DNA of 25,857 bases. Source: a virus. The stretch covers positions 1 through 25,857 of IMG/VR virus record IMGVR_UViG_3300042516_003390; one strand, 5' to 3'. A program made the position numbers and the translations under genes. Positions 4,319 through 25,649 of this stretch are shown here, piece by piece. The notes under the pieces are model-generated. The model made no database searches. It was given only the letters and a program-made list of their open reading frames with translations, and was not told where the DNA came from. The first letter of the stretch is position 1. Each line of letters begins with the position of its first letter.

Positions 4319-4553
4319 TAATACGTGCCTTATTTCTATTGTTGAAGAAGTTTATGCGGAACTTGGAGAACCTAATTGTAAATTGATCAATCCGTATGAA
4401 ATAATAAAAGAAGAAATTACGCATAATATTTCTTTAAAAGTTTGGCCAGATTATACAACACAGAGAGAAATTATGATCAGTTCTGAGCATATTTTAACTC
4501 TTGTTGAACCTTCTGAAAATATTATTAGAAAATACCTTGAATTAACTGCCTAA
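4245..4553 (+). CDS. Paralogue of the preceding protein, overlapping it out of frame (102 aa)
   Basis: Starts inside the 3' end of the previous gene and overlaps it by 74 bases in another frame; no clear Shine-Dalgarno is seen. A Gln/Thr repeat (QTQTQTQIQNPN) is followed by a core that lines up with the upstream protein: LKTLILNNNTCLISIVEEV against IKLALLKTGDTIIADMKEL, and ISLKVWPDY--REIMISSEHILTLVEPSENIIRKY against VEVTLSPWM--RKIAITSDWVVTVVNPLDTIIDIY. A tandem duplication with divergence is the simplest reading. The stop overlaps the gp43 start (TAATG). An internal start is possible, but no better ATG precedes the core. Confidence 0.72.
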   Translation: MTNQPQTQTQTQIQNPNLKTLILNNNTCLISIVEEVYAELGEPNCKLINPYEIIKEEITHNISLKVWPDYTTQREIMISSEHILTLVEPSENIIRKYLELTA

Positions 4554-5830
4554 TGAGATTTTACACTAACGTTCAAATGGTCGGGGACAACTTTCTTGTC
4601 CGTGGTTATGAAGATGGAAAACATTTCATGACCCGTGAGAAGTTTAACCCGACTCTTTTTGTCCCTGCCAATAAAAAAACTAAATACCAAACTTTAAATG
4701 GAGAATATGTAGAATCAGTTCAACCTGGATCTGTCCGTGATTGTAGGGAGTTCGTTAAAAAGTATGAGAATGTAGAAAACTTTAAAATCTTCGGAAATAC
4801 TCAATACATCTATCAGTATATTTCTGATATGTATCCTGAAGAAGAATTGAAGTTTGACATTAATAAGATTAAAGTAACTACTATTGATATTGAGGTTGCT
4901 TCTGAAAATGGATTCCCTGATGTAGAATCTGCTGCTGAAGAAGTTCTTTTGATTACTGTTCAAGATTATTCTTCAAAACAAATTAACACTTGGGGAAAGG
5001 GTCCCTTTCAAAATAAACAGAAGAATGTAAACTATCGTTCATTCTCAAGTGAGTATGATCTTCTGAATGATTTCATTAATTGGTGGATGATTGAATCCAA
5101 CACTCCTGAAGTTGTGACTGGGTGGAACAGCAAACTGTATGATATCCCTTATCTTGTTCGTAGAATTGATAGGGTTCTTGGTGAAAAACTGATGAAGCGT
5201 TTGTCTCCTTGGGGACTTGTTACTGAAGATGAAACTTATATCTCTGGACGTAAGCATCTTTGTTATGATATTGGAGGGATCTCACAGTTAGACTATCTTG
5301 ATCTTTATAAGAAATTTACTTATAAGGCACAGGAATCTTATCGACTGGATTATATTGCTGAAGTTGAACTGAAGCAAAAGAAACTAGATCACTCCGAGTT
5401 TGATACGTTCAAGGACTTCTATACCAAGGGTTGGCAGAAGTTTGTAGAGTACAATATCAAGGACGTGGAACTTGTTGACCGTTTGGAAGACAAGATGAAA
5501 CTGATTGAACTTGCGCTTACCATGGCATATGACGCCAAGGCAAACTATGAGGATGTATTTTCTCAAGTTCGTATGTGGGATACGATCATTTACAACTATC
5601 TGAAGAAAAGAAATATTGTTATTCCTCCTAAAGAACGTTCTGATAAAGACACCAAGTATGAGGGTGCTTATGTAAAGGAACCTATTCCTGGGATGTATGA
5701 TTATGTGGTAAGTTTTGACTTAAATTCACTTTATCCACACTTGATTATGCAATACGCAATATCTCCAGAAACACTTGTTGAAAAGCATGAACTTAATAAT
5801 CGTATTGCAGAGTTGGAAAAAATGTTGTAG
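4553..5830 (+). CDS. 43A: DNA polymerase gp43, N-terminal half (exonuclease domain and motif A)
   Basis: N-terminal fragment of the family B replicative polymerase. The 3'-5' exonuclease motifs are all present: Exo I DIE (Asp112, Glu114), Exo II WNSKLYD (about 191-197) and Exo III YNIKD (Tyr300, Asp304). Polymerase motif A, DLNSLYP, is at 389-395. The reading frame then stops at TAG 5828, 29 residues after motif A, where an HNH endonuclease gene begins. The rest (motifs B and C) is encoded from 6445. Joining the two frames at the repeated AAATGT restores an uninterrupted polymerase. The two halves probably assemble non-covalently, as described for split gp43 of some other T4-like phages. Confidence 0.93.
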   Translation: MRFYTNVQMVGDNFLVRGYEDGKHFMTREKFNPTLFVPANKKTKYQTLNGEYVESVQPGSVRDCREFVKKYENVENFKIFGNTQYIYQYISDMYPEEELKFDINKIKVTTIDIEVASENGFPDVESAAEEVLLITVQDYSSKQINTWGKGPFQNKQKNVNYRSFSSEYDLLNDFINWWMIESNTPEVVTGWNSKLYDIPYLVRRIDRVLGEKLMKRLSPWGLVTEDETYISGRKHLCYDIGGISQLDYLDLYKKFTYKAQESYRLDYIAEVELKQKKLDHSEFDTFKDFYTKGWQKFVEYNIKDVELVDRLEDKMKLIELALTMAYDAKANYEDVFSQVRMWDTIIYNYLKKRNIVIPPKERSDKDTKYEGAYVKEPIPGMYDYVVSFDLNSLYPHLIMQYAISPETLVEKHELNNRIAELEKML

Positions 5831-5843
5831 AATATCCTCATCT

Positions 5844-5851
5844 TATAAATA
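5844..5851 (+). promoter_or_regulatory. Late promoter of the HNH endonuclease
   Basis: Exact TATAAATA inside the cassette. Initiation is expected near 5857, about 20 bases before ATG 5877, so the endonuclease should be made late even though it sits in an early operon. Confidence 0.75.
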
Positions 5852-5876
5852 ATAATGTGTGGATACAATAAAACAA

Positions 5877-6443
5877 ATGCAACCAAAATTCAATATAACT
5901 AAAGAACAACTGAACCAACTTTATATTCTTGAAAATAAAAGTCGTAAAGAGTGCGCTGATTTTTTTGGATGCTCTGATCCTCTTATTAAACAAAAAATAC
6001 AAAAGTATGGACTCCAAAAACCTAAACATTTGGAGAATAAAAATAAAGAGAGAAAGGAAACTCTTTATTGTGAAAATTGCGGTTCTCCATTTATCGTAAG
6101 TAGGTTTAGGGCAATAAGTGAAAAATGGAAACTTCGTTTTTGTTCTCATTCTTGCTCTACTAAATTTAGATATTTGGGTGAAGAACATAAGAGGGCAGTT
6201 TTGAACTCTGTTGCTGCTCGTAGAAGATGTAGAATAAGAGATGCTTTTGATGAAACTGCAAATCAACAAAAAATAAATGAGATTTATTGTGAAGCAAAAC
6301 GATTAACAGAAGAAACTAATGTTCCTCACGAAGTAGACCACATAATTCCAATTTCAAAAGGAGGAAAGCATCACGAAGACAACTTGCAGATTATTACTAT
6401 GAGTGAAAACCGCAAAAAGCATACTAAAATTATGGAGAATTGA
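5877..6443 (+). CDS. HNH homing endonuclease (188 aa)
   Basis: Free-standing HNH nuclease expected to cut the uninterrupted gene 43 of competing phages. N-terminus: helix-turn-helix-like DNA-binding segment (about residues 8-44: TKEQLNQLYILENKSRKECA then CSDPLIKQKIQKYG). Middle: zinc-ribbon with CENC (65-68) and CSHSC (89-93). C-terminus: the HNH core HEVDHIIPISKGGKHHEDN with His155 after Asp154, Asn169 and Asn178. An upstream in-frame GTG (5859) is possible, but the predicted late start at about 5857 leaves no leader for it, so ATG 5877 is preferred. The 3' end supplies the GGAG for gp43B. No intein motifs are seen. Confidence 0.88.
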   Translation: MQPKFNITKEQLNQLYILENKSRKECADFFGCSDPLIKQKIQKYGLQKPKHLENKNKERKETLYCENCGSPFIVSRFRAISEKWKLRFCSHSCSTKFRYLGEEHKRAVLNSVAARRRCRIRDAFDETANQQKINEIYCEAKRLTEETNVPHEVDHIIPISKGGKHHEDNLQIITMSENRKKHTKIMEN

Positions 6444-6444
6444 A

Positions 6445-7791
6445 ATGTGGAAAGATATTCGTAAAATGACCCGTGAGGAAATTATAGAAGAACTTGAGGT
6501 ACTTAAACAGGTAAGAGAACTTTCTGCAAAGGTAAATGTAGATAAACTTCTCAAACAAGAGTTGGATTTGGAACCTTTGCGAAAGGTAAATCTCACTATG
6601 ACTGCGAATGGAGCACTCTATCATAGAGTGAAAGGTATGCTTCCGGAGTTGATGGAGAAGATCTATAATGAACGTGTGATCTTCAAGAAAAAAATGCTTG
6701 AGGCAGAACAAGCATATGAAAAGAAAAAGACGAAGGAATTGGAAAAAGAAATTTCTCGTTGCAACAACATCCAAATGGCACGTAAGATTCAACTTAACTC
6801 CGCTTATGGTGCTATTGGCAATCAGTATTTCCGTTATTTTAAACTTGCAAATGCAGAGGCAATTACCCTTTCTGGTCAAGTTTCAATTAATTGGATTATG
6901 AATAAGGTAAATGCTTATTTGAATAAAATTCTTAAAACTGATGGTGAAGATTATGTTATTGCTTCAGATACTGATTCTCTTTACGTTAATATGGGTCCTT
7001 TGGTTGAGAGTGTATACAAAGGAAGAGAGAAAACTACTCAAAGCGTTGTTTCGTTCCTTGATAAGGTCTGTCAGGTGGAATTTGAAAAGTATATTGAAAA
7101 TTCTTACGAAGAACTGGCGGAATATGTGAATGCTTATGAGCAAAAAATGATCATGAAGCGTGAGTGTATTGCCGAACGTGGTATTTGGACTGCAAAGAAG
7201 CGATACATTTTAAGTGTGTGGGATAGTGAAGGTGTTCGTTATGCTGAACCCAAACTTAAAATTAAAGGTATTGAAGCAATTAAATCTTCTACACCTGCCC
7301 CTTGTCGTAAGATGTTGAAAGAATCTTTTAATATCTTAATGAGTGGTACTGAAGATGATATGATTAAGTTTATTGATCAATGTCGTGAGGAGTTTAAATC
7401 CCTTCCCCCAGAACAAATTGCATTTCCTAGAACTGCATCTGATGTTCGTAAGTATCATTCTTCTTCCAATATTTACGCACCTAAAACTCCGATTCAAGTT
7501 CGTGGTGCATTATTGTTCAATCATTATGTAAAACAGAAAAATCTTACCAATAAGTATTCTCTGATTAATAATGGTGAAAAGGTTAAGTTCATTTTTCTAA
7601 AGAAACCAAATATTATTCAAGAAAATGTGATATCTTTTATTCAGCAGTTTCCTACAGAACTTGGTCTTGACAAATATATTGATTATGAACTACAATTTGA
7701 GAAAGCATTCTTGGATCCACTCAAAACAATTCTGAATATTATTGGGTGGCAAGAAGAAAAAACTATAAATCTTGAATCATTTTTCTTTTAA
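6445..7791 (+). CDS. 43B: DNA polymerase gp43, C-terminal half (motifs B and C)
   Basis: C-terminal 448 residues of the replicative polymerase, re-initiated at the ATG that in the intact gene would be an internal Met codon. GGAG at 6434-6437, within the HNH gene, serves as ribosome site. Motifs: B KIQLNSAYGAIGN (114-126), C SDTDSLY (Asp175, Asp177), KKRY (251-254) in the thumb-proximal region, and a C-terminal ESFFF resembling the clamp-binding tail of T4 gp43 (FDMFDF). The catalytic Asp residues are thus divided between the two products: motif A in the first, motif C in the second. The frame stays open upstream to 6403 within the HNH gene, but those codons are not polymerase-like. Confidence 0.93.
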   Translation: MWKDIRKMTREEIIEELEVLKQVRELSAKVNVDKLLKQELDLEPLRKVNLTMTANGALYHRVKGMLPELMEKIYNERVIFKKKMLEAEQAYEKKKTKELEKEISRCNNIQMARKIQLNSAYGAIGNQYFRYFKLANAEAITLSGQVSINWIMNKVNAYLNKILKTDGEDYVIASDTDSLYVNMGPLVESVYKGREKTTQSVVSFLDKVCQVEFEKYIENSYEELAEYVNAYEQKMIMKRECIAERGIWTAKKRYILSVWDSEGVRYAEPKLKIKGIEAIKSSTPAPCRKMLKESFNILMSGTEDDMIKFIDQCREEFKSLPPEQIAFPRTASDVRKYHSSSNIYAPKTPIQVRGALLFNHYVKQKNLTNKYSLINNGEKVKFIFLKKPNIIQENVISFIQQFPTELGLDKYIDYELQFEKAFLDPLKTILNIIGWQEEKTINLESFFF

Positions 7792-12094: not shown

Positions 12095-12695
12095 TTTTAT
12101 AGATTTTTATAAAATTAATCCAAAACTAAAACTTCTTCCTGAAAGATTTAATCTCATACATGAAGAATATGCTAAAAACAAAAACAATTTAGAATTTAAA
12201 GATTTTAGTAAAAAGCAAGAATATAGTATTGGAATTAGTAAAAAAGGACACCCAATATCCATTAATGAGTATCTCCACCAGGATAAAAAAACAAACTCCA
12301 TTGGGTGGCATATTTCCGCACTTTATGGAAATAGTACTGAGTATCTAAGAAATACTCAGTACTTACCAATACTTACAAAAACTTTAGAAGAAATTAATCT
12401 TCTTTCTATTTGTGCAATTAATTTGTTAGATCCCTCGTATTCTTTAGACTGGCACAATGATAATGATTATTTTCCAAACGTACCTACAGTAAGAATTCTT
12501 TGGGGTTTAGATGTTCCTTTAGAAAAGGATAAATACTCAATAATTCAACTTCAAGGTGAAGATAAAATTATTGAGACTAAAAAATTTGAAAATGGTGAAT
12601 TTTATATTTTTTTACCAAGTTTAACACATAGAGTAGAAAATACACTTTCACAATCTAGATCATTGTTGTGTATAGATGCTTTTTTGGGGAATTAG
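12087..12695 (+). CDS. 2OG/Fe(II) oxygenase-like, aspartyl/asparaginyl hydroxylase type (202 aa)
   Basis: Third oxygenase-like gene in 3.8 kb. The pattern LDWHNDND (His123, Asp125), His181 in LTHRVEN and Arg191 ten residues later matches the AspH/LpxO branch, where HxD and a distal H bind iron and an Arg binds 2-oxoglutarate. VRILWGLDVP before and FYIFLPSLTH around the second His fit the jelly-roll strands. ATG 12087 is chosen; an in-frame TTG at 12078 is weaker. The last ten bases overlap the first strand of a tRNA. The gene is very AT-rich. Substrate unknown; the AspH assignment is less sure than the oxygenase fold. Confidence 0.75.
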   Translation: MSNFIDFYKINPKLKLLPERFNLIHEEYAKNKNNLEFKDFSKKQEYSIGISKKGHPISINEYLHQDKKTNSIGWHISALYGNSTEYLRNTQYLPILTKTLEEINLLSICAINLLDPSYSLDWHNDNDYFPNVPTVRILWGLDVPLEKDKYSIIQLQGEDKIIETKKFENGEFYIFLPSLTHRVENTLSQSRSLLCIDAFLGN

Positions 12696-12756
12696 TTAAA
12701 CGGTATAACGGGTGCTTTGCAAGCACTTATTAGGAGTTCGATTCTCCTATTCTCCA
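12686..12756 (+). tRNA. tRNA-Ala (anticodon UGC)
   Basis: 71 nt. Acceptor GGGGAAT pairs with ATTCTCC (one G-U), D stem GTTA/TAAC, anticodon stem GGTGC/GCACT, loop TTTGCAA giving anticodon TGC, and T stem AGGAG/CTCCT with loop TTCGATT. No encoded CCA tail. Its 5' ten bases overlap the end of the preceding oxygenase gene, including the TAG stop. Confidence 0.92.
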
Positions 12757-12761
12757 TTTAT

Positions 12762-12834
12762 GCCCGTGTACTCCAACGGTAGAGAGGGTGGACTTAGAAT
12801 CCATACAGTGGAAGTTCAAATCTTCTCACGGGCA
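12762..12834 (+). tRNA. tRNA with anticodon UAG (nominally Leu), short variable loop
   Basis: 73 nt. Acceptor GCCCGTG/CACGGGC, D stem CTC/GAG, anticodon stem GTGGA/TCCAT, loop CTTAGAA giving anticodon TAG (codon CUA), T stem GGAAG/CTTCT with loop TTCAAAT, discriminator A. The variable loop is only 5 bases, whereas bacterial Leu tRNAs have a long variable arm. Cloverleaf firm; amino acid identity less so. Confidence 0.85.
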
Positions 12835-12856
12835 CTAAATAAAAATAAAAATAAAA

Positions 12857-14101
12857 ATGGCAAGTTACGGTTCCGATAACTGGAATAGGAATTGGAGAGG
12901 TAGTGATAAACAATCTGTAGTAAAAAAATCTTTTTCTTCTTATTATAAAAGAAATAAGAATGGTACTTTTTCTAGAGTTGGGAAATTAAATGAAGGGACT
13001 CCGATAGTTTATATTAACTCTCAAACTAAAGAGCATACGAGAGCGGCAATTAATATTTCTAATGATGAAGAAATTTATTATATTAATATTGACAATTTAG
13101 TAAAACCAATAACAAATGCAAGATCTAATCTTCCCTTAAATCCCAGTAGTTTTGGATTACAGGGAATTTATCCATCTGTTACTACATATTATAACGCTGT
13201 TGTTGAGGCATTAAACAACCGAAATGATATTGATGGTGAATTATTTGATTATTTGCATCAACTTTTAAATTATGCAAAAATAGGTTCTCATGATTATTCT
13301 GGAATTATGATGGATGGGTTTCCTTGGAATGAACTGGTCAAAGATTTTGGAGAAGTTTTAGGTCCAATAGTATGTGTTAAAAATAGAAGAGGACTATTGA
13401 GTAATATAATACCAACATTTGAACTTTCTTCTGCAAAAATTTTTATTCCATCATCTGGTGAACCCATTTATGATTATAAAATTATATCTGGAAAAAGTGA
13501 ACATTTAATATCTGCCAAGTCTGCAAGAGCAGTTACGAACCAAATTAAACCACAATATGCAATTCCAGTAGTTCGGGGAAAATTATCACAAATTTTATTA
13601 ATGTCAGATGCTTATAATTTATTGAATATATTGGCAAATTACTCAATTAAACAAGGTCCATTTTATGGTTGGCAACTTTTGCAAAATACTACTGATCTAA
13701 CTAGTGATGCCATTAATGATATGGAAAAAAATTATGCCCCAAGAAATAAAAAATCAATTGACCTAATTTCGGATTATGAATCTTGGAAACCATTTTTAAA
13801 CAAATATTTTTCTGGGAGAAAAAGAATTTCTTATGGGCAAGTTAGATATAAATGTGAACAATTGATTGAAACTAAGACTAAGACTGGAACCTTAAATATA
13901 AATCTTAAAGAAATATTTAAAGTGTATTTAAATGAATCTAGAGTTATCTTTGTTAAAACTGGTATAAACTCTAATACGGGTGTGCCATCTTTTACCGCGT
14001 CTGCTGGAGGTGGATCTACTCTGGTTAATAGACTTTATTTAAGATCATCAAATAGTTCTCCGACAAGACTTGGTGACAAAATAGGATTTCAGATAAGTTA
14101 A
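12857..14101 (+). CDS. Unknown protein, possible restriction-endonuclease-like fold (414 aa)
   Basis: Not recognised with confidence. The N-terminus is basic, Ser/Tyr-rich and polar (first 45 residues). The centre has a helix NELVKDFGEVLGPIVC (about 159-173) followed by strands, then GEPIYDYKIISGKSEHLISA ending in Lys221. The order (Glu-bearing helix, Asp206, then S-x-K with Lys221) resembles variant PD-(D/E)XK nucleases that use SxK. The C-terminal 100 residues are strand-rich, ending with a Gly/Ser-rich stretch. No Shine-Dalgarno is clear; the leader is an A-rich run after the second tRNA. Function as a nuclease is an inference; a virion or unrelated early protein is possible. Confidence 0.65.
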   Translation: MASYGSDNWNRNWRGSDKQSVVKKSFSSYYKRNKNGTFSRVGKLNEGTPIVYINSQTKEHTRAAINISNDEEIYYINIDNLVKPITNARSNLPLNPSSFGLQGIYPSVTTYYNAVVEALNNRNDIDGELFDYLHQLLNYAKIGSHDYSGIMMDGFPWNELVKDFGEVLGPIVCVKNRRGLLSNIIPTFELSSAKIFIPSSGEPIYDYKIISGKSEHLISAKSARAVTNQIKPQYAIPVVRGKLSQILLMSDAYNLLNILANYSIKQGPFYGWQLLQNTTDLTSDAINDMEKNYAPRNKKSIDLISDYESWKPFLNKYFSGRKRISYGQVRYKCEQLIETKTKTGTLNINLKEIFKVYLNESRVIFVKTGINSNTGVPSFTASAGGGSTLVNRLYLRSSNSSPTRLGDKIGFQIS

Positions 14102-14103
14102 TT

Positions 14104-14334
14104 ATGAATAATATAATATTAGAAATTATTAGTTCTTTTGAAAGTCGTTCAAAAACAAAGGCATTAAAATATGAAGATTTTCTTGCTCACGTTTATAAGA
14201 CTTTTGATGATAAAATAAATTCTTGTAAGATAGAAAAGTTAAAGAATAAATATAAAAAGATGAGAGTAGATGCTCTAAAATACATAGTTGCAAACGAAAA
14301 AACAATAGCAACTGAAATTTTTAAAAATAAGTAA
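14104..14334 (+). CDS. Small basic protein of unknown function (76 aa)
   Basis: Begins two bases after the previous stop and its own stop overlaps the next ATG (TAATG). It is a Lys-rich and entirely helical-looking protein (KIEKLKNKYKKMRVDALKYI in the middle) with no membrane segment. I do not recognise it. Tight packing supports it as a gene; a role as a partner of the 414-aa protein or a nucleic-acid-binding accessory would be guesswork. Confidence 0.7.
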   Translation: MNNIILEIISSFESRSKTKALKYEDFLAHVYKTFDDKINSCKIEKLKNKYKKMRVDALKYIVANEKTIATEIFKNK

Positions 14335-15614
14335 TGAAAAATTTTCTCCAATTTATCACAGAAGCTTCCAGAGCGGTTCAGCAAGCTCAGCGTATGGGAT
14401 TAGATACTGATGGGCATGGCGGATGGTATAAGAACGGTGAATTTGTAGCAAAAACTGTAAATGATGAATTAAAATTTTATAATAAGCGTCAGTCACCTGG
14501 AAAGGATCCTGCGCAAACAGAAAAAGAAAAGAATATTTCAAATCCAAATTTTGTTGATCCTTCACTTCAACAGCAGCAAGTCTTACCTTCCCAACCAATC
14601 GCTCAGGAATCTCCACCAGTAAATTATCTTCCCGTAGAAAAAACAAAGGGAACATTAACAGTTGTATATGGTAGGTTTAATCCTCCTCATATTGGGCACC
14701 TCGAGTTAATGGATACTGCTGCAGGCGTAGCTCAATCGGAAGGAAGTGATTATGTAATTATTCCTTCACGAACTCAGGATAGAAATAAAAATCCATTAGA
14801 TCCAGATACAAAAATATCAATAATGAGGCAAATGTTTCCACAGCATAGTGAGAGAATATTAAATGATTCAAATACGAGTACTATTTTTGATGTTTTAAAG
14901 AAAGCACATAATGATGGATATTCAAACGTGAGAATTGCTGGTGGACCTACTAAAATAAAAGAGTTTGAAAAATTGTCCAATAGTTATAATGGAAATCTTT
15001 ATCAATTTGACACTATTGAAGTAATGCCAATTGGTGAAAAGGACGCAGATTCTGATAAAGCCGAAGACCTTTCTGCTTCAAGAATGAGACTTGCTGCTGC
15101 GGAAAATGACTTTAAAACTTTTAGATCTGGGATGCCTCTAGAAATGAGACCAAAAGATGCAAGAGCAATTTTTGATGTTCTTCGCCAATCTATGGGTGTA
15201 GAAGATACTACTGTTGTTGAAGTTTGGAAAATAGCACCAAAACTTGATTGGAAAAATCTAAGAGAAAATTACATTCAGGAAAAAATTTATCAAGTTGGCG
15301 AATTAGTTGAAAATTTAAATACTGGTTTAACGGGACGTATCATTCGTAGAGGAACTAATTATTTAATTTGTGTGACTGAAGATAATATCATGTTCAAATC
15401 TTGGATTAAAGATGTTACGGAAGCCTATCAAGAAAAATTTGTTGATAGTATTGAAAGATCTCCTGGTAAACCAAACACACTAGTGGGAACTACTGGTTAT
15501 TTAAAGTATGTTGCTTCTATGTCTAAGGGACATGAGTCGGGTAAAGAGAATTTAGCATTTGGACAAAAGAATTTTGGTCTTAATTTCATAAATAAGTATA
15601 AGAAAAGTAAGTAA
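14334..15614 (+). CDS. Nucleotidyltransferase-like protein with capsid-targeting-like N-terminus (426 aa)
   Basis: Three parts. Residues 1-11 (MKNFLQFITEA) match the MKxxxxFIxEA pattern of T4 internal head proteins, which carry a capsid-targeting peptide. Residues 108-255 form a nucleotidyltransferase fold: GRFNPPHIGH (113-122) is the T/HxGH signature and SASRMR (247-252) the downstream ISxSxxR-type element, as in NMN adenylyltransferases and cytidylyltransferases. Residues 319-363 (YQVGELVENLNTGLTGRIIR then TNYLICVTED) look like a small SH3/KOW-type barrel. The Gln/Pro-rich stretch 73-100 is a linker. Substrate (NMN or CTP) cannot be told. Packaging into the head is inferred from the N-terminus only. 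Confidence 0.8.
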   Translation: MKNFLQFITEASRAVQQAQRMGLDTDGHGGWYKNGEFVAKTVNDELKFYNKRQSPGKDPAQTEKEKNISNPNFVDPSLQQQQVLPSQPIAQESPPVNYLPVEKTKGTLTVVYGRFNPPHIGHLELMDTAAGVAQSEGSDYVIIPSRTQDRNKNPLDPDTKISIMRQMFPQHSERILNDSNTSTIFDVLKKAHNDGYSNVRIAGGPTKIKEFEKLSNSYNGNLYQFDTIEVMPIGEKDADSDKAEDLSASRMRLAAAENDFKTFRSGMPLEMRPKDARAIFDVLRQSMGVEDTTVVEVWKIAPKLDWKNLRENYIQEKIYQVGELVENLNTGLTGRIIRRGTNYLICVTEDNIMFKSWIKDVTEAYQEKFVDSIERSPGKPNTLVGTTGYLKYVASMSKGHESGKENLAFGQKNFGLNFINKYKKSK

Positions 15615-15627
15615 TTTAAAACTTCTA

Positions 15628-16758
15628 ATGAAAAAAGAAATTTTTGAAGAGCAAGGTGGACCTCATCGCGGTCACGCTGCTGGTGATACTGATATAGAAA
15701 AACAAGCATCTCAACTTGCATCGGATGTAAAATATAAAGTTAAAAAAATGATGAGTGGAGTTACTAGAATGACTCCTGCACAAGTATCTCAAGCATATCT
15801 TCAACAACTGGCAAAATCTCCAGCACCCGCTATGGTTAAAGCATTGGCAAAGAAAAAACTCATGGGTAAATTAAATGAAGAATTTACAGTAGATGATATT
15901 GTAGAACAATCATTAATTTCTGCTCTTGAAAAAGTATTCGTGTATGGAATTAATGTTGTTGAATCTTTAGAAACTGATGAATATTTGTTGCAACTTGAAG
16001 AAACCGGAGAAAGAAAATATAAAGTAAGAGTCACTGATAAGAAAACTGGTAATTCATACATTCGTTATGCAACACGTTCAAAAATTTCTGAACTTCGTGC
16101 CAATCCAAATATTTCCTCTGTTGAAATGACTGAATACGGTACTCCATATGATAGTGAGGCAAGAGGTGGTAAGCAAACTGCAGCAGCAAAATCAGGCAGA
16201 GATTATGATGGAGATGGTAAAGTAGAAAGTGGCGCAAAGGAATATCGTGGTGCAGTTCATAATGCAATTCAGCGTCGCAAAGGTGGAAAACCAGATGGTA
16301 GAGATACCTCAAGTGTAAGAGAAGAGTTTATAAGTGAAGTTGATAAGAAAGAAAAAAAAAATAAAATTGATGTAATGCGTGGAAAAAATACTTGTGTAAA
16401 AGTTTTTCCAGATAGTCAAGTTCGTGAGAATACACAACTCGTGGAAAAATCAGTTAGTGTAAGTCAACAGCAAGCGGCAGGAGCAGCTCTTTCAGCAAAA
16501 AGAGGTGAAATTGACCCATCTGAATTAAAAGGTGCTTCTCTTGAAATGTATAAAACCATGACTGAAAAGCAACTTAGAGATTTTGCAAAAACTAAGCACA
16601 AAGGTCTTCCAGAAAAGGTGGAAGAGGAAACCTGTGGTTCTAAAGATTCTGAAGATACTCGTGATGATTATGCAAAGGTTAATATTATTAAAAACAAGAT
16701 AAGAGCAATGGGAGTTAAAAATCCTATTGTAATGGTTCGTGATAATGTAAAAAAATAA
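15628..16758 (+). CDS. Putative virion-associated protein with EF-hand-like loop (376 aa)
   Basis: Composite, highly charged protein. Residues 131-175 (KVRVTDKKTGNSYIRY onward) recur, to my memory, in marine T4-like virion proteins. A DYDGDGKVESGAKE loop (192-205) has the D-x-D-x-D-G spacing of a calcium-binding EF-hand, but Ala replaces the usual position-12 Glu. Residues 277-330 (SVSQQQAAGAALSAKRGEID through KTKHKGLPEK) resemble small DUF3008-type proteins. A GHAAGD segment lies near the start. No Shine-Dalgarno is obvious before the ATG. It follows the nucleotidyltransferase gene by 13 bases and is followed by late-promoter motifs. A structural or internal head role is likely but inferred. 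Confidence 0.7.
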   Translation: MKKEIFEEQGGPHRGHAAGDTDIEKQASQLASDVKYKVKKMMSGVTRMTPAQVSQAYLQQLAKSPAPAMVKALAKKKLMGKLNEEFTVDDIVEQSLISALEKVFVYGINVVESLETDEYLLQLEETGERKYKVRVTDKKTGNSYIRYATRSKISELRANPNISSVEMTEYGTPYDSEARGGKQTAAAKSGRDYDGDGKVESGAKEYRGAVHNAIQRRKGGKPDGRDTSSVREEFISEVDKKEKKNKIDVMRGKNTCVKVFPDSQVRENTQLVEKSVSVSQQQAAGAALSAKRGEIDPSELKGASLEMYKTMTEKQLRDFAKTKHKGLPEKVEEETCGSKDSEDTRDDYAKVNIIKNKIRAMGVKNPIVMVRDNVKK

Positions 16759-17201: not shown

Positions 17202-17783
17202 ATGGCTCTTTGGGGCAAAGCAGACGCTGTATATGCGACAGGAACAGTTACCGTAGATTTGTCTAATAAGACAATTACTGGATCTGGAACAACTTTTACC
17301 AATGCTTCGGTAGGTGATGTAATTTCAATCGGTGTTGGTAATACTTTTGGTCAAGCAGTAATTTCTGGTATTACATCCAATACTATTGTTTCTATTGCAT
17401 CAACACAATTCATTACTGGAATAGGAACTGTAGGTTTCGGTAGATTGGTTGGTGTTGCATATACCATTTCACAAAAACCAAAATATACTTTGGAAGACGG
17501 GCAGTATTTTGCTCCTGATGTAAAATCGAATAGATATTCTGCAGTATTTGGTGTAGATACTTATGAAGCTGCTGCTGCTAGTGCGGCAACTGTTGGTGGA
17601 AAAGCAGGAGCATATGGTGTTGCTCATGCTGGTTGGGTTGGAGTAACAACCTATGTAGATGCACAGGGTAATTTTAGAGTTAAGTCTGAAGTTCTTGTTG
17701 CAATGAGTGGTATTAGCTCAGGAACTCCTGCAGTGGGAACTTATGGAGATGCTGGTGATGATGCTAGAATGCCAGATAGCTGA
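17202..17783 (+). CDS. Putative virion structural protein (193 aa)
   Basis: Starts MALWGKAD and ends with a conserved-looking tail (YVDAQGNFRVKSEVLVAMSG, then GDAGDDARMPDS), a beginning and end that I associate with small virion proteins of marine T4-like phages. Residues about 13-75 form a Thr/Gly/Val-rich beta domain (TGTVTVDLSNKTITGSGTTF, GNTFGQAVISG) resembling an added capsid-surface or fibre-type domain. An Ala-rich segment (EAAAASAATVGG) follows. It has its own exact late promoter and upstream terminator, consistent with strong late expression as a capsid or decoration component. The exact role is not determined. Confidence 0.65.
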   Translation: MALWGKADAVYATGTVTVDLSNKTITGSGTTFTNASVGDVISIGVGNTFGQAVISGITSNTIVSIASTQFITGIGTVGFGRLVGVAYTISQKPKYTLEDGQYFAPDVKSNRYSAVFGVDTYEAAAASAATVGGKAGAYGVAHAGWVGVTTYVDAQGNFRVKSEVLVAMSGISSGTPAVGTYGDAGDDARMPDS

Positions 17784-24227: not shown

Positions 24228-25649
24228 ATGAAGAGTTTTAGAGAGTTTATATTTATTGCGGAAACTGCTGCTAGTGAGGCAGGTCAATGGAAAAAAATGA
24301 ATGATGCTGATTTTGAGAAGTGGGTTAGTAGATTAGGTACTGAAGGTGAACGTGAAAATATGAGAAGAGCAAGGGCAAGGGTCAAAGCAAGAACTCAAAA
24401 TGTTTCTGGACAAGACGTAAGGGGTTCTAGATCTACACAAACACCACCTAGACAACCTTCAGGATCTACACAGTCCACACAAACACAAACCCAAACGCCC
24501 CCTAGAGGCGCTCAGACACGTACTCAAACGCCTCCTAGACAACCCTCAGGACCTACTCAAACACCTCCTAGAGGCGCTCAGACGCCACCTAGAAGTACCC
24601 AAACGCCTCCTAGACAACCCTCAGGTGCTACTCCACCACCTCCTAAACCACCTACTAGAAACGTTCCAGCACCTGCACCAACACCTGCCGCTGCGCCACC
24701 AAAGGGTCCAGGACTTCGTTCTCGTTTAGGTAGTGTTGCAGGTCCTGCGGCAAACGTTGCTGGTGCTGCTATGGATTATCAGGCAAGAAGAGAAGCAGGA
24801 CAATCAAAACAAAGAGCAGCAGGTGGTGCTGCTTCACAACTGGCAGGATATGCAGCAGCAGCAAAATTCGGGGCGATGGTTCCTGGACCACCAATTGTTA
24901 AAGGTGCTGCTGCACTTGCTGCAGGAGTTGCTGGTGCAGATGCTGCCGGAAAGGCATATGATTATGCAGCAGATAAAACCCGCCCAGCAAGACAAGAAGT
25001 TTCAAAAGCAACTGGATTTGATAAGTTCCAGCAAAAGAATGCATTAATTAAGCAAGGTGCTGGTCTTCAAAAAGCGCAGCAAACTGTAGATACCAGAGGA
25101 GCAAGACAAGTTGCTGCAAAGGCAGGAACTTATGGTGCAAGACAAGGATCTGCATTAACTGGTATTGGTGGAAAAACTACCACCAGTAAAGATGCCAAAG
25201 GTGCTGCATTCATGAGTACAGGTGCTGGAAAACAAAGACAAACCGTTCAACTTGCAAAAACTCAATTAGTTCGTGATCCAAAATCTGGTAAGCAAGTAGT
25301 TGGTGATTTAGCATATAAGGGAGGAAAACCAGTTTATCTTGCCAGACCTTCAGTTGCATCCAGAGACACAAGTCTTGGTGCAAGAGTTGGTAGGGCACTT
25401 AATATTGGTAGATATTCTAAGGCAGCAGAAACTCAAGCAGCAAAACAAGAGTATAGAACTGCTCTAAAGAATACGCAAACATATCAAAAGAAACTTGGTA
25501 TTACTCCAAAGGCAGCAACTGCTCAGAAACTTCCTGGACGTGGAGTTGGACCAGCAAAAGTTGGTCCTAAATTAGTTGGACCTAAAATTGTAGGGCCTAA
25601 AAAAGTAGGAACTGGTGCTAAACCATCAGCAACAGTAAAACCAGCATAA
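24228..25649 (+). CDS. Putative internal head protein, Pro/Gln/Ala-rich with repeats (473 aa)
   Basis: Late gene of unusual composition. Residues 1-12 (MKSFREFIFIAE) resemble the capsid-targeting peptide of T4 internal proteins, with a possible gp21-type cleavage after IAE. Residues 69-160 are a Thr/Gln/Pro/Arg-rich repeat region (TQTPPRQPSG and TPPRGAQT units). Residues 165-250 are Gly/Ala-rich with small-residue helices (VAGAAMDYQA, GAAALAAGVAGADAAGKAYD) that might associate with membranes. The rest is basic and Gln-rich, ending in VGPK repeats (PKLVGPKIVGPKK). Net charge is strongly positive, as expected of a DNA-associated head protein. No enzymatic motif is visible. A tail or tape-type component is the main alternative. 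Confidence 0.65.
   Translation: MKSFREFIFIAETAASEAGQWKKMNDADFEKWVSRLGTEGERENMRRARARVKARTQNVSGQDVRGSRSTQTPPRQPSGSTQSTQTQTQTPPRGAQTRTQTPPRQPSGPTQTPPRGAQTPPRSTQTPPRQPSGATPPPPKPPTRNVPAPAPTPAAAPPKGPGLRSRLGSVAGPAANVAGAAMDYQARREAGQSKQRAAGGAASQLAGYAAAAKFGAMVPGPPIVKGAAALAAGVAGADAAGKAYDYAADKTRPARQEVSKATGFDKFQQKNALIKQGAGLQKAQQTVDTRGARQVAAKAGTYGARQGSALTGIGGKTTTSKDAKGAAFMSTGAGKQRQTVQLAKTQLVRDPKSGKQVVGDLAYKGGKPVYLARPSVASRDTSLGARVGRALNIGRYSKAAETQAAKQEYRTALKNTQTYQKKLGITPKAATAQKLPGRGVGPAKVGPKLVGPKIVGPKKVGTGAKPSATVKPA
24432..24707 (+). repeat. Coding tandem/dispersed repeats (TQTPPRQPSG, TPPRGAQT units)
   Basis: Short near-identical DNA units such as CCTAGACAACCCTCAGG and CTCCTAGAGGCGCTCAGAC recur several times in this stretch, encoding the proline-rich linker. 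The unit order is irregular, suggesting slippage or unequal recombination. Confidence 0.8.

Follow-up and report, generated by a model that had tools for sequence, protein, structure and literature searches.

How the enzymes carried in phage heads get there, and what they do on leaving, is a question that the gene at 14334-15614 of the window raises directly (the window being the entire virus record analyzed here, a fragment of 25,857 bases). It belongs to a core gene family of marine T4-like cyanophages whose presence in virions has been known from mass spectrometry since 2010, and whose entry route into the head had been left without an explanation; the N-terminal tag described below offers one. 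An earlier note on this DNA had proposed a nucleotidyltransferase that may be packaged in the capsid and injected. As relatives have been found in virions and the tag is common to other packaged enzymes, the enzyme is probably delivered to the cell with the phage DNA.

The gene and its setting

The ORF encodes 426 amino acids from an ATG start on the plus strand, with the same limits that the earlier note had assigned. The window reads, in order, a split gp43 DNA polymerase, UvsX, gp41, MazG, the block of interest, gp61 primase, nrdA, and nrdB, and the best protein matches are to S-SRM01 (59% identity) and P-SSM2 (57%); on this gene order and these matches, we place the window as a piece of a T4-like cyanophage-type virus (Kyanoviridae). 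No capsid or protease genes were found within the 25.9-kb window. By sequence comparison the gene is the cyanophage core gene T4-GC190, an assignment taken from the P-SSM2 record, where the orthologue PSSM2_194 is 57% identical over its full length. Its position in the block between mazG and gp61/nrdA agrees with the gene order of S-SCSM1, P-SSM2, and S-SM1. The protein also matches phrog_395 (E=2.5e-92) over residues 101-376, which span the catalytic and C-terminal modules, and homology to the T4-GC190/phrog_395 family extends to 528 phage records, in which its members are named "cyti(ti)dyltransferase" or NMNAT. The features of the locus are as follows.

12857-14101, plus strand: upstream gene, distant homologue of S-SZBM1_142 by sequence comparison, in the same syntenic block between mazG and primase
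14334-15614, plus strand: tagged nucleotidyltransferase of the T4-GC190/phrog_395 family, 426 amino acids (PF01467, phrog_395, P-SSM2 orthology)
14334-14363, plus strand: putative capsid-targeting tag MKNFLQFITE, residues 1-10, with a prohead-protease cut predicted after E10 (IpIII/IpII match, conservation, rule from PMC9026906)
14391-14501, plus strand: GHG module, residues 20-56, a predicted three-stranded sheet (HMM searches, AlphaFold model)
14640-15137, plus strand: nucleotidyltransferase domain, residues 103-268, with HxGH at 119-122, K152, SxSxxR at 247-252, and the GGPTK loop at 203-207 (profile matches, alignment, model, Foldseek)
15240-15419, plus strand: small C-terminal beta module, residues 303-362 (HMM; model strands at 324-357)
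15628-16758, plus strand: downstream gene whose product has a DUF3008 domain and is related to S-SCSM1_93 (domain search, sequence comparison)
17202-17783, plus strand: homologue of S-SCSM1_95 (tail fibre/virion protein), 40% identity, in the same syntenic block

In the matching block of S-SCSM1, genes 89, 90, 91, 92, 93, 95, and 97 are listed as virion proteins. Since the window holds homologues of genes 93 and 95, the block around our gene appears, by homology, to be a cluster of virion-protein genes set within the replication region. The product of 15628-16758, which has its DUF3008 region in common with the virion protein of S-SCSM1 gene 93, is a probable virion or prohead-core partner; the tag was not found in this ORF. 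Directly upstream of the block lie tRNA-Ala(TGC) and tRNA-Leu(TAG) (12685-12835), with a tRNA-Ala at the matching place in S-SCSM1. Late promoters were considered as support for late expression and rejected, since the window is AT-rich and its 14 ATAAATA matches are about what chance would give (12 expected). The DNA polymerase gene (4553-7791) is split into ORFs 4553-5830 and 6403-7791 around an HNH-like ORF at 5859-6443, and the polymerase of S-CREM2 is also split; an intron was considered here and gave no Rfam match.

An N terminus like those of T4 internal proteins

The first 12 residues of the protein (MKNFLQFITEAS) align without gaps to the N termini of T4 IpIII (MKTYQEFIAEAS) and IpII (MKTYQEFIAEAR), both read from the T4 record, which upholds the likeness to T4 internal proteins claimed in the earlier note. 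In T4, residues 1-10 of IpIII are enough for targeting, genetics places targeting at residues 4 and 7 and processing at residues 8 and 10, and the T4 protease gp21 cuts after L/I-x-E (PMC9026906). The position-by-position match between the window protein and IpIII includes these mapped targeting and processing residues, and MKNFLQFITEA accordingly carries an aromatic or hydrophobic residue at positions 4 and 7, L or I at 8, and E at 10. An AlphaFold model places a helix at residues 4-11, with low confidence.

As a positive control, a strict form of the tag pattern was searched in all six frames of 50 kb of T4 and recovered IpII and IpIII and nothing else; T4 IpI, whose propeptide is longer, escapes it. 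The same strict pattern occurs at five starts in about 407 kb, comprising two complete cyanophages and the window. The core pattern [FYL]..[FY][LIVMF].E was found 27 times inside proteins of three cyanophages (154,725 residues, or 1.7e-4 per residue), from which about 0.13 occurrences starting at residue 4 would be expected in about 721 genes and about nine were observed. Given this rarity of the strict pattern and the excess over expectation, the N-terminal tag is more than chance.

Of the 78 family sequences, 76 retain F4 and all retain F7; L or I stands at position 8 in 70, and E10 is likewise kept in 70, with positions 3, 5, and 9 variable. The codons at the conserved positions differ synonymously, which argues that the peptide rather than the DNA is kept (the sequences were preselected for the pattern, and only the synonymous variation is informative). 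In P-SSM4, S-RIM2, and ACG-2014a, the start MKKFSAFL.EA persists where the linker after the tag no longer aligns. A shortened tag (FQES) in 7 of 80 metagenomic relatives and a shifted tag in two others do not fit L/I-x-E at position 10. No such tag was found at the annotated starts of the homologues in Escherichia coli phage UB, Pseudomonas phage PAC2, and Pelagibacter phage HTVC008M, and the tag is thus a trait of cyanophage lineages.

Relatives in purified virions

Members of the family have been detected by mass spectrometry in purified virions of S-SM1 (named T4-GC190; 2010, PMC3037559), S-SCSM1 (ORF91; PMC9602691), S-SZBM1 (_140; PMC9146016), and S-CREM2 (ORF154; PMC10665884). All four are tagged, with the starts MKKFSAFLNEA, MKSFLQFLKEA, MRFRQFIIEA, and MKNFSSFLTEA, respectively. 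The S-PM2 orthologue is untagged and was undetected in the S-PM2 virion proteome, a weak negative given that this proteome also missed genuine head and tail proteins. The capsid proteins of S-SCSM1 and S-CREM2 read FLAEA-P and LLTEA-P, respectively, where gp21-type cleavage would be expected. The packaging proposed in the earlier note thus gains strong support from relatives, through these orthologues and through the same tag on other virion cargo of S-CREM2.

Two further virion proteins, S-SCSM1_97 (L088:43121-43306) and S-CREM2 gp160 (L092:14343-15236), bear a 24-residue copy of the N-terminal arm of the major capsid protein (50-75% identical), a possible capsid-arm mimic.

The same start on other cargo

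In S-CREM2, where a start-codon scan covered all but the first 3 kb, five annotated genes have the motif at their start (gp6, gp13, gp14, gp154, and gp175), and four of these five products were detected in virions; for all genes the figure is 52 of 221 (Fisher p=0.012). One of three tagged genes was detected in each of S-SCSM1 and S-SZBM1, where the enrichment taken alone is not significant (p=0.43 and 0.36), and pooling the three phages gives 6 of 11 motif-bearing genes detected (p=0.008), a figure that is indicative only, as it counts related genes and the pattern was drawn up with the window and T4 already in view. Three small tagged proteins encoded in the terminase/tail-fibre region, S-SZBM1_191, S-SZBM1_192, and S-SCSM1_30 (L084:22311-23125, L087:44215-44535), were undetected in virion mass spectrometry and are cargo candidates.

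The tagged S-CREM2 proteins detected in virions include the small protein gp13, the APH-like kinase gp14, and the SAM lyase-like gp6 (L106:838-2082; PF23780, E=2e-19), the last of which is, from its domain match, a candidate for an injected anti-restriction enzyme. The HNH/Cas9-like gp12, also virion detected, has LRFASFMAEA slightly internal, at residues 17-26. An HMM of the GHG module (family residues 12-56), searched against the ORFs of these phages, found gp12 (E=1e-13) and gp14 (E=2e-17, two copies) outside the family; beyond these, it returned one hit, at chance level (E=0.37). In S-CRM01, genes g127 to g131 form one contiguous island, in which the cytidylyltransferase g127 starts with MKLFNQFFKE, g129 with MKKLDQFLTE, and the kinase g130, which also has the GHG module, with MISFDQFLSE; g128 carries the GHG module, and g131 has a shorter tag-like start, MNFSEFLEA. 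A putative kinase has been reported in S-CRM01 virions.

The window itself holds a second tag-like start, at 24228-25649 (MKSFREFIFIAETAAS), with F4, F7, and then I-A-E at 10-12, on a Pro/Thr/Gln-rich protein of 473 amino acids whose only phage homologues found are in the Synechococcus phages DSL-LC02, DSL-LC03, and S-SRM01 (C-terminal half). From its start, this protein is a candidate for further head cargo.

The enzyme domain

The catalytic part matches PF01467 (CTP_transf_like, E=1.2e-7), and an AlphaFold model built on a 55-sequence alignment has pLDDT values mostly of 84-93 over the core of the nucleotidyltransferase domain; it shows the GHG module as a small sheet and the C-terminal module as a small beta unit. 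Foldseek matches the model to NaMN adenylyltransferases, one of which is the best match, and to PPAT, human NMNAT, and FAD synthetase, all at about 12-17% identity. The window protein has both the HxGH (H119-H122) and the SxSxxR (S247/S249/R252) signatures of NMN/NaMN adenylyltransferases, as well as K152. Across the 78 sequences, the GH of HxGH/TxGH, D149, K152, P154, S247, S249, and R252 are invariant, and the first residue of HxGH is H in 44 and T in 34. No relative of solved structure was found at E<=10 with the single sequence, and the best PDB profile match, a bifunctional NMN adenylyltransferase/Nudix hydrolase, is nonsignificant (E=0.22). The curated cut-offs of NMNAT-specific models were not reached (nadR, 18.2 bits of 341; bifunctional NMNAT, 15.7 of 403), and we therefore class the protein, on its modeled fold, as NMNAT/PPAT-like rather than as an NMNAT.

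In the window protein, the GGxDR loop reads GGPTK (D206T, R207K), with D kept in 75 and R in all of the other 77 members. The GGADR of the family has become GGPTK, GGPNR, and SGSKR in the window protein and the two relatives L002 and L007, respectively, and the same three proteins have D-K-x-E-D in a second loop where the family has E-G-V-E-G. These changes, at 14940-14954 and 15057-15068 in the window (residues 203-207 and 242-245), occur jointly in this subclade and suggest an altered specificity. In NMNATs, the Asp of the GGxDR region contacts the adenosine ribose, so that substrate or rate may differ in the window subclade; with GGPTK in this loop the enzyme may be less active or act differently, and we regard the activity of the subclade as uncertain. 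The domain had been called complete in the earlier note. The profiles and the model show that the domain is real, and its HxGH, K152, and SxSxxR signatures are in place, but the word "complete" needs correcting at the GGxDR loop.

The C-terminal module is the best-conserved part of the family (81% mean identity) and occurs as a separate gene in S-PM2 (S-PM2p141) and S-RSM4 (S-RSM4_062). These two genes, which match the module, are annotated as ribonucleotide reductase subunits in S-RSM4 and S-PM2 (L099:3031-3285, L100:4788-5063), and the annotation is probably an error. Two candidate relatives were set aside: the NARP1 enzyme Namat, which is Nampt-like, and the S-CBWM1 "NMNAT," which is distant in predicted structure (rank 50, 20% identity), probably reflects a separate recruitment, and was not counted as an orthologue.

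Proposed delivery and its alternatives

Tag-driven packaging with ejection is, in our judgment, the best explanation, and we hold it with good confidence. Targeting by the tag in cyanophages, cleavage, ejection, the substrate, and the presence of the protein in virions of the window phage are steps that we infer. The first 10 residues would act as a T4-type capsid-targeting sequence, with F4 and F7 binding the prohead core; a gp21-type protease would then cut after I-T-E at residue 10, leaving an enzyme of roughly 46 kDa loose in the head, from which it would exit with the DNA and act in the cell before phage gene expression. There, with its HxGH adenylyltransferase fold, it would most likely use ATP and (Na)MN to make NAD or the nicotinate precursor of NAD. 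As the tag, often with the GHG module, is common to other packaged cyanophage proteins, the enzyme would be one item of a cargo set, together with APH-like kinase, HNH/Cas9-like, and SAM lyase-like proteins, that is loaded by one route.

Virion detection would also result if the protein were an ordinary intracellular auxiliary metabolic enzyme, expressed highly and late, that sticks to virions, its motif having another role or being a habit of the lineage. The authors of the S-SCSM1 (PMC9602691) and S-CREM2 (PMC10665884) studies themselves warned of co-purification of abundant proteins, and just 2 peptides of the family member were counted in S-SZBM1 and 3 in S-CREM2. However, four independent proteomes find the family, replication proteins are nearly absent from the S-SZBM1 and S-CREM2 lists, unrelated virion-detected enzymes of S-CREM2 have the same N terminus, and conservation falls on the positions mapped in T4, so we regard adherence as very unlikely. 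The protein might instead be packaged through its tag and serve mainly in assembly, as a core or head protein, with catalysis secondary or lost in the window subclade. The conservation and separate existence of the C-terminal module would suit such a role, as would the departure of the GGxDR loop in the window protein, L002, and L007; the invariance of the GH of HxGH/TxGH, K152, and SxSxxR in 78 sequences is nevertheless hard to explain without catalysis, and we consider an assembly protein unlikely.

A packaged and ejected enzyme with another substrate, whether phosphopantetheine, a flavin, a nucleotide related to defence, or one used with CTP, would overlap with the explanation that we prefer and differ in its reaction. 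Foldseek puts PPAT and FAD synthetase next to NadD, the family has both HxGH and TxGH, and the sequence matches to NMNAT models are weak, all of which keep such a substrate a serious possibility, if somewhat short of an even chance; on the other side stand the best fold match and, for what its nonsignificant score allows, the best PDB profile match. NMN or NaMN as the substrate, judged by itself, we put at about even. From the modeled fold, we infer that NMN or NaMN is likelier than CTP: no CTP-using enzyme is among the 50 Foldseek matches listed, which does not bear out a CTP-dependent cytidylyltransferase. Of the NAD- or CDP-forming activity proposed earlier, the fold thus favors an adenylyltransferase of the NAD or CoA type and disfavors CDP formation.

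Significance and comparison with known systems

What this analysis adds is the recognition of the tag, of how well it agrees with T4 genetics, and of its presence on unrelated packaged enzymes. In a search mostly of literature outside subscription, nothing beyond a T4 review linked capsid targeting with cyanophages, and the tag as a common loading route looks undescribed. Once it is recognized, the protein becomes an injected enzyme open to testing, and other cargo (a kinase, an HNH protein, and a SAM lyase) can be picked out with nothing but the sequence. The tag also forecasts the cyanophage proteins that would be first to enter the cell, and reporter proteins might be brought into cyanophage heads by means of it. 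We advance only tentatively the wider idea of a general cyanophage cargo-loading system, in which an interchangeable N-terminal cassette (the tag, often with the GHG module) would load a changing set of enzymes that are injected before transcription to act against host defence and to reset cofactor pools, with the nucleotidyltransferase providing preemptive NAD synthesis against NAD-depleting immunity. If true, this set would include the nucleotidyltransferase, which belongs to the cyanomyovirus core, together with a protein kinase, a nuclease, and a SAM lyase.

The closest relatives of the window protein are the T4-GC190 members PSSM2_194 of P-SSM2, S-SCSM1_91, and S-SM1_190, which are homologous over their full length, tag included (57% identity to P-SSM2 and 45% to S-SCSM1), and lie in the same neighborhood between mazG and primase/nrdA; the window protein, L002, and L007 stand apart from the rest of the family by changes in two active-site loops that are conserved elsewhere. 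With the NadD and PPAT adenylyltransferases, the protein shares the HxGH nucleotidyltransferase fold and an SxSxxR-type second signature, but at 12-17% identity, and it adds the tag, the GHG module, and the C-terminal module. S-CREM2 gp14 and gp12 and S-CRM01 g127-g131 have the N-terminal tag and GHG module in common with it, whereas their catalytic domains differ.

T4 Alt, named as a precedent in the earlier note, is an ejected enzyme that consumes NAD and modifies RNA polymerase. As a packaged enzyme of a T4-like phage that is processed by gp21 (PMC9026906), it may fairly be cited as a precedent for ejection, although the window protein would make a dinucleotide, and the likeness is one of route, with no relation in sequence or fold claimed. 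For the tag, IpII and IpIII of T4 are closer: they have an N-terminal peptide of 10-12 residues with the same spacing and the same L/I-x-E rule as the window protein, yet where these internal proteins have 100 and 193 amino acids, respectively, the cargo here is an enzyme of 426 amino acids with extra modules.
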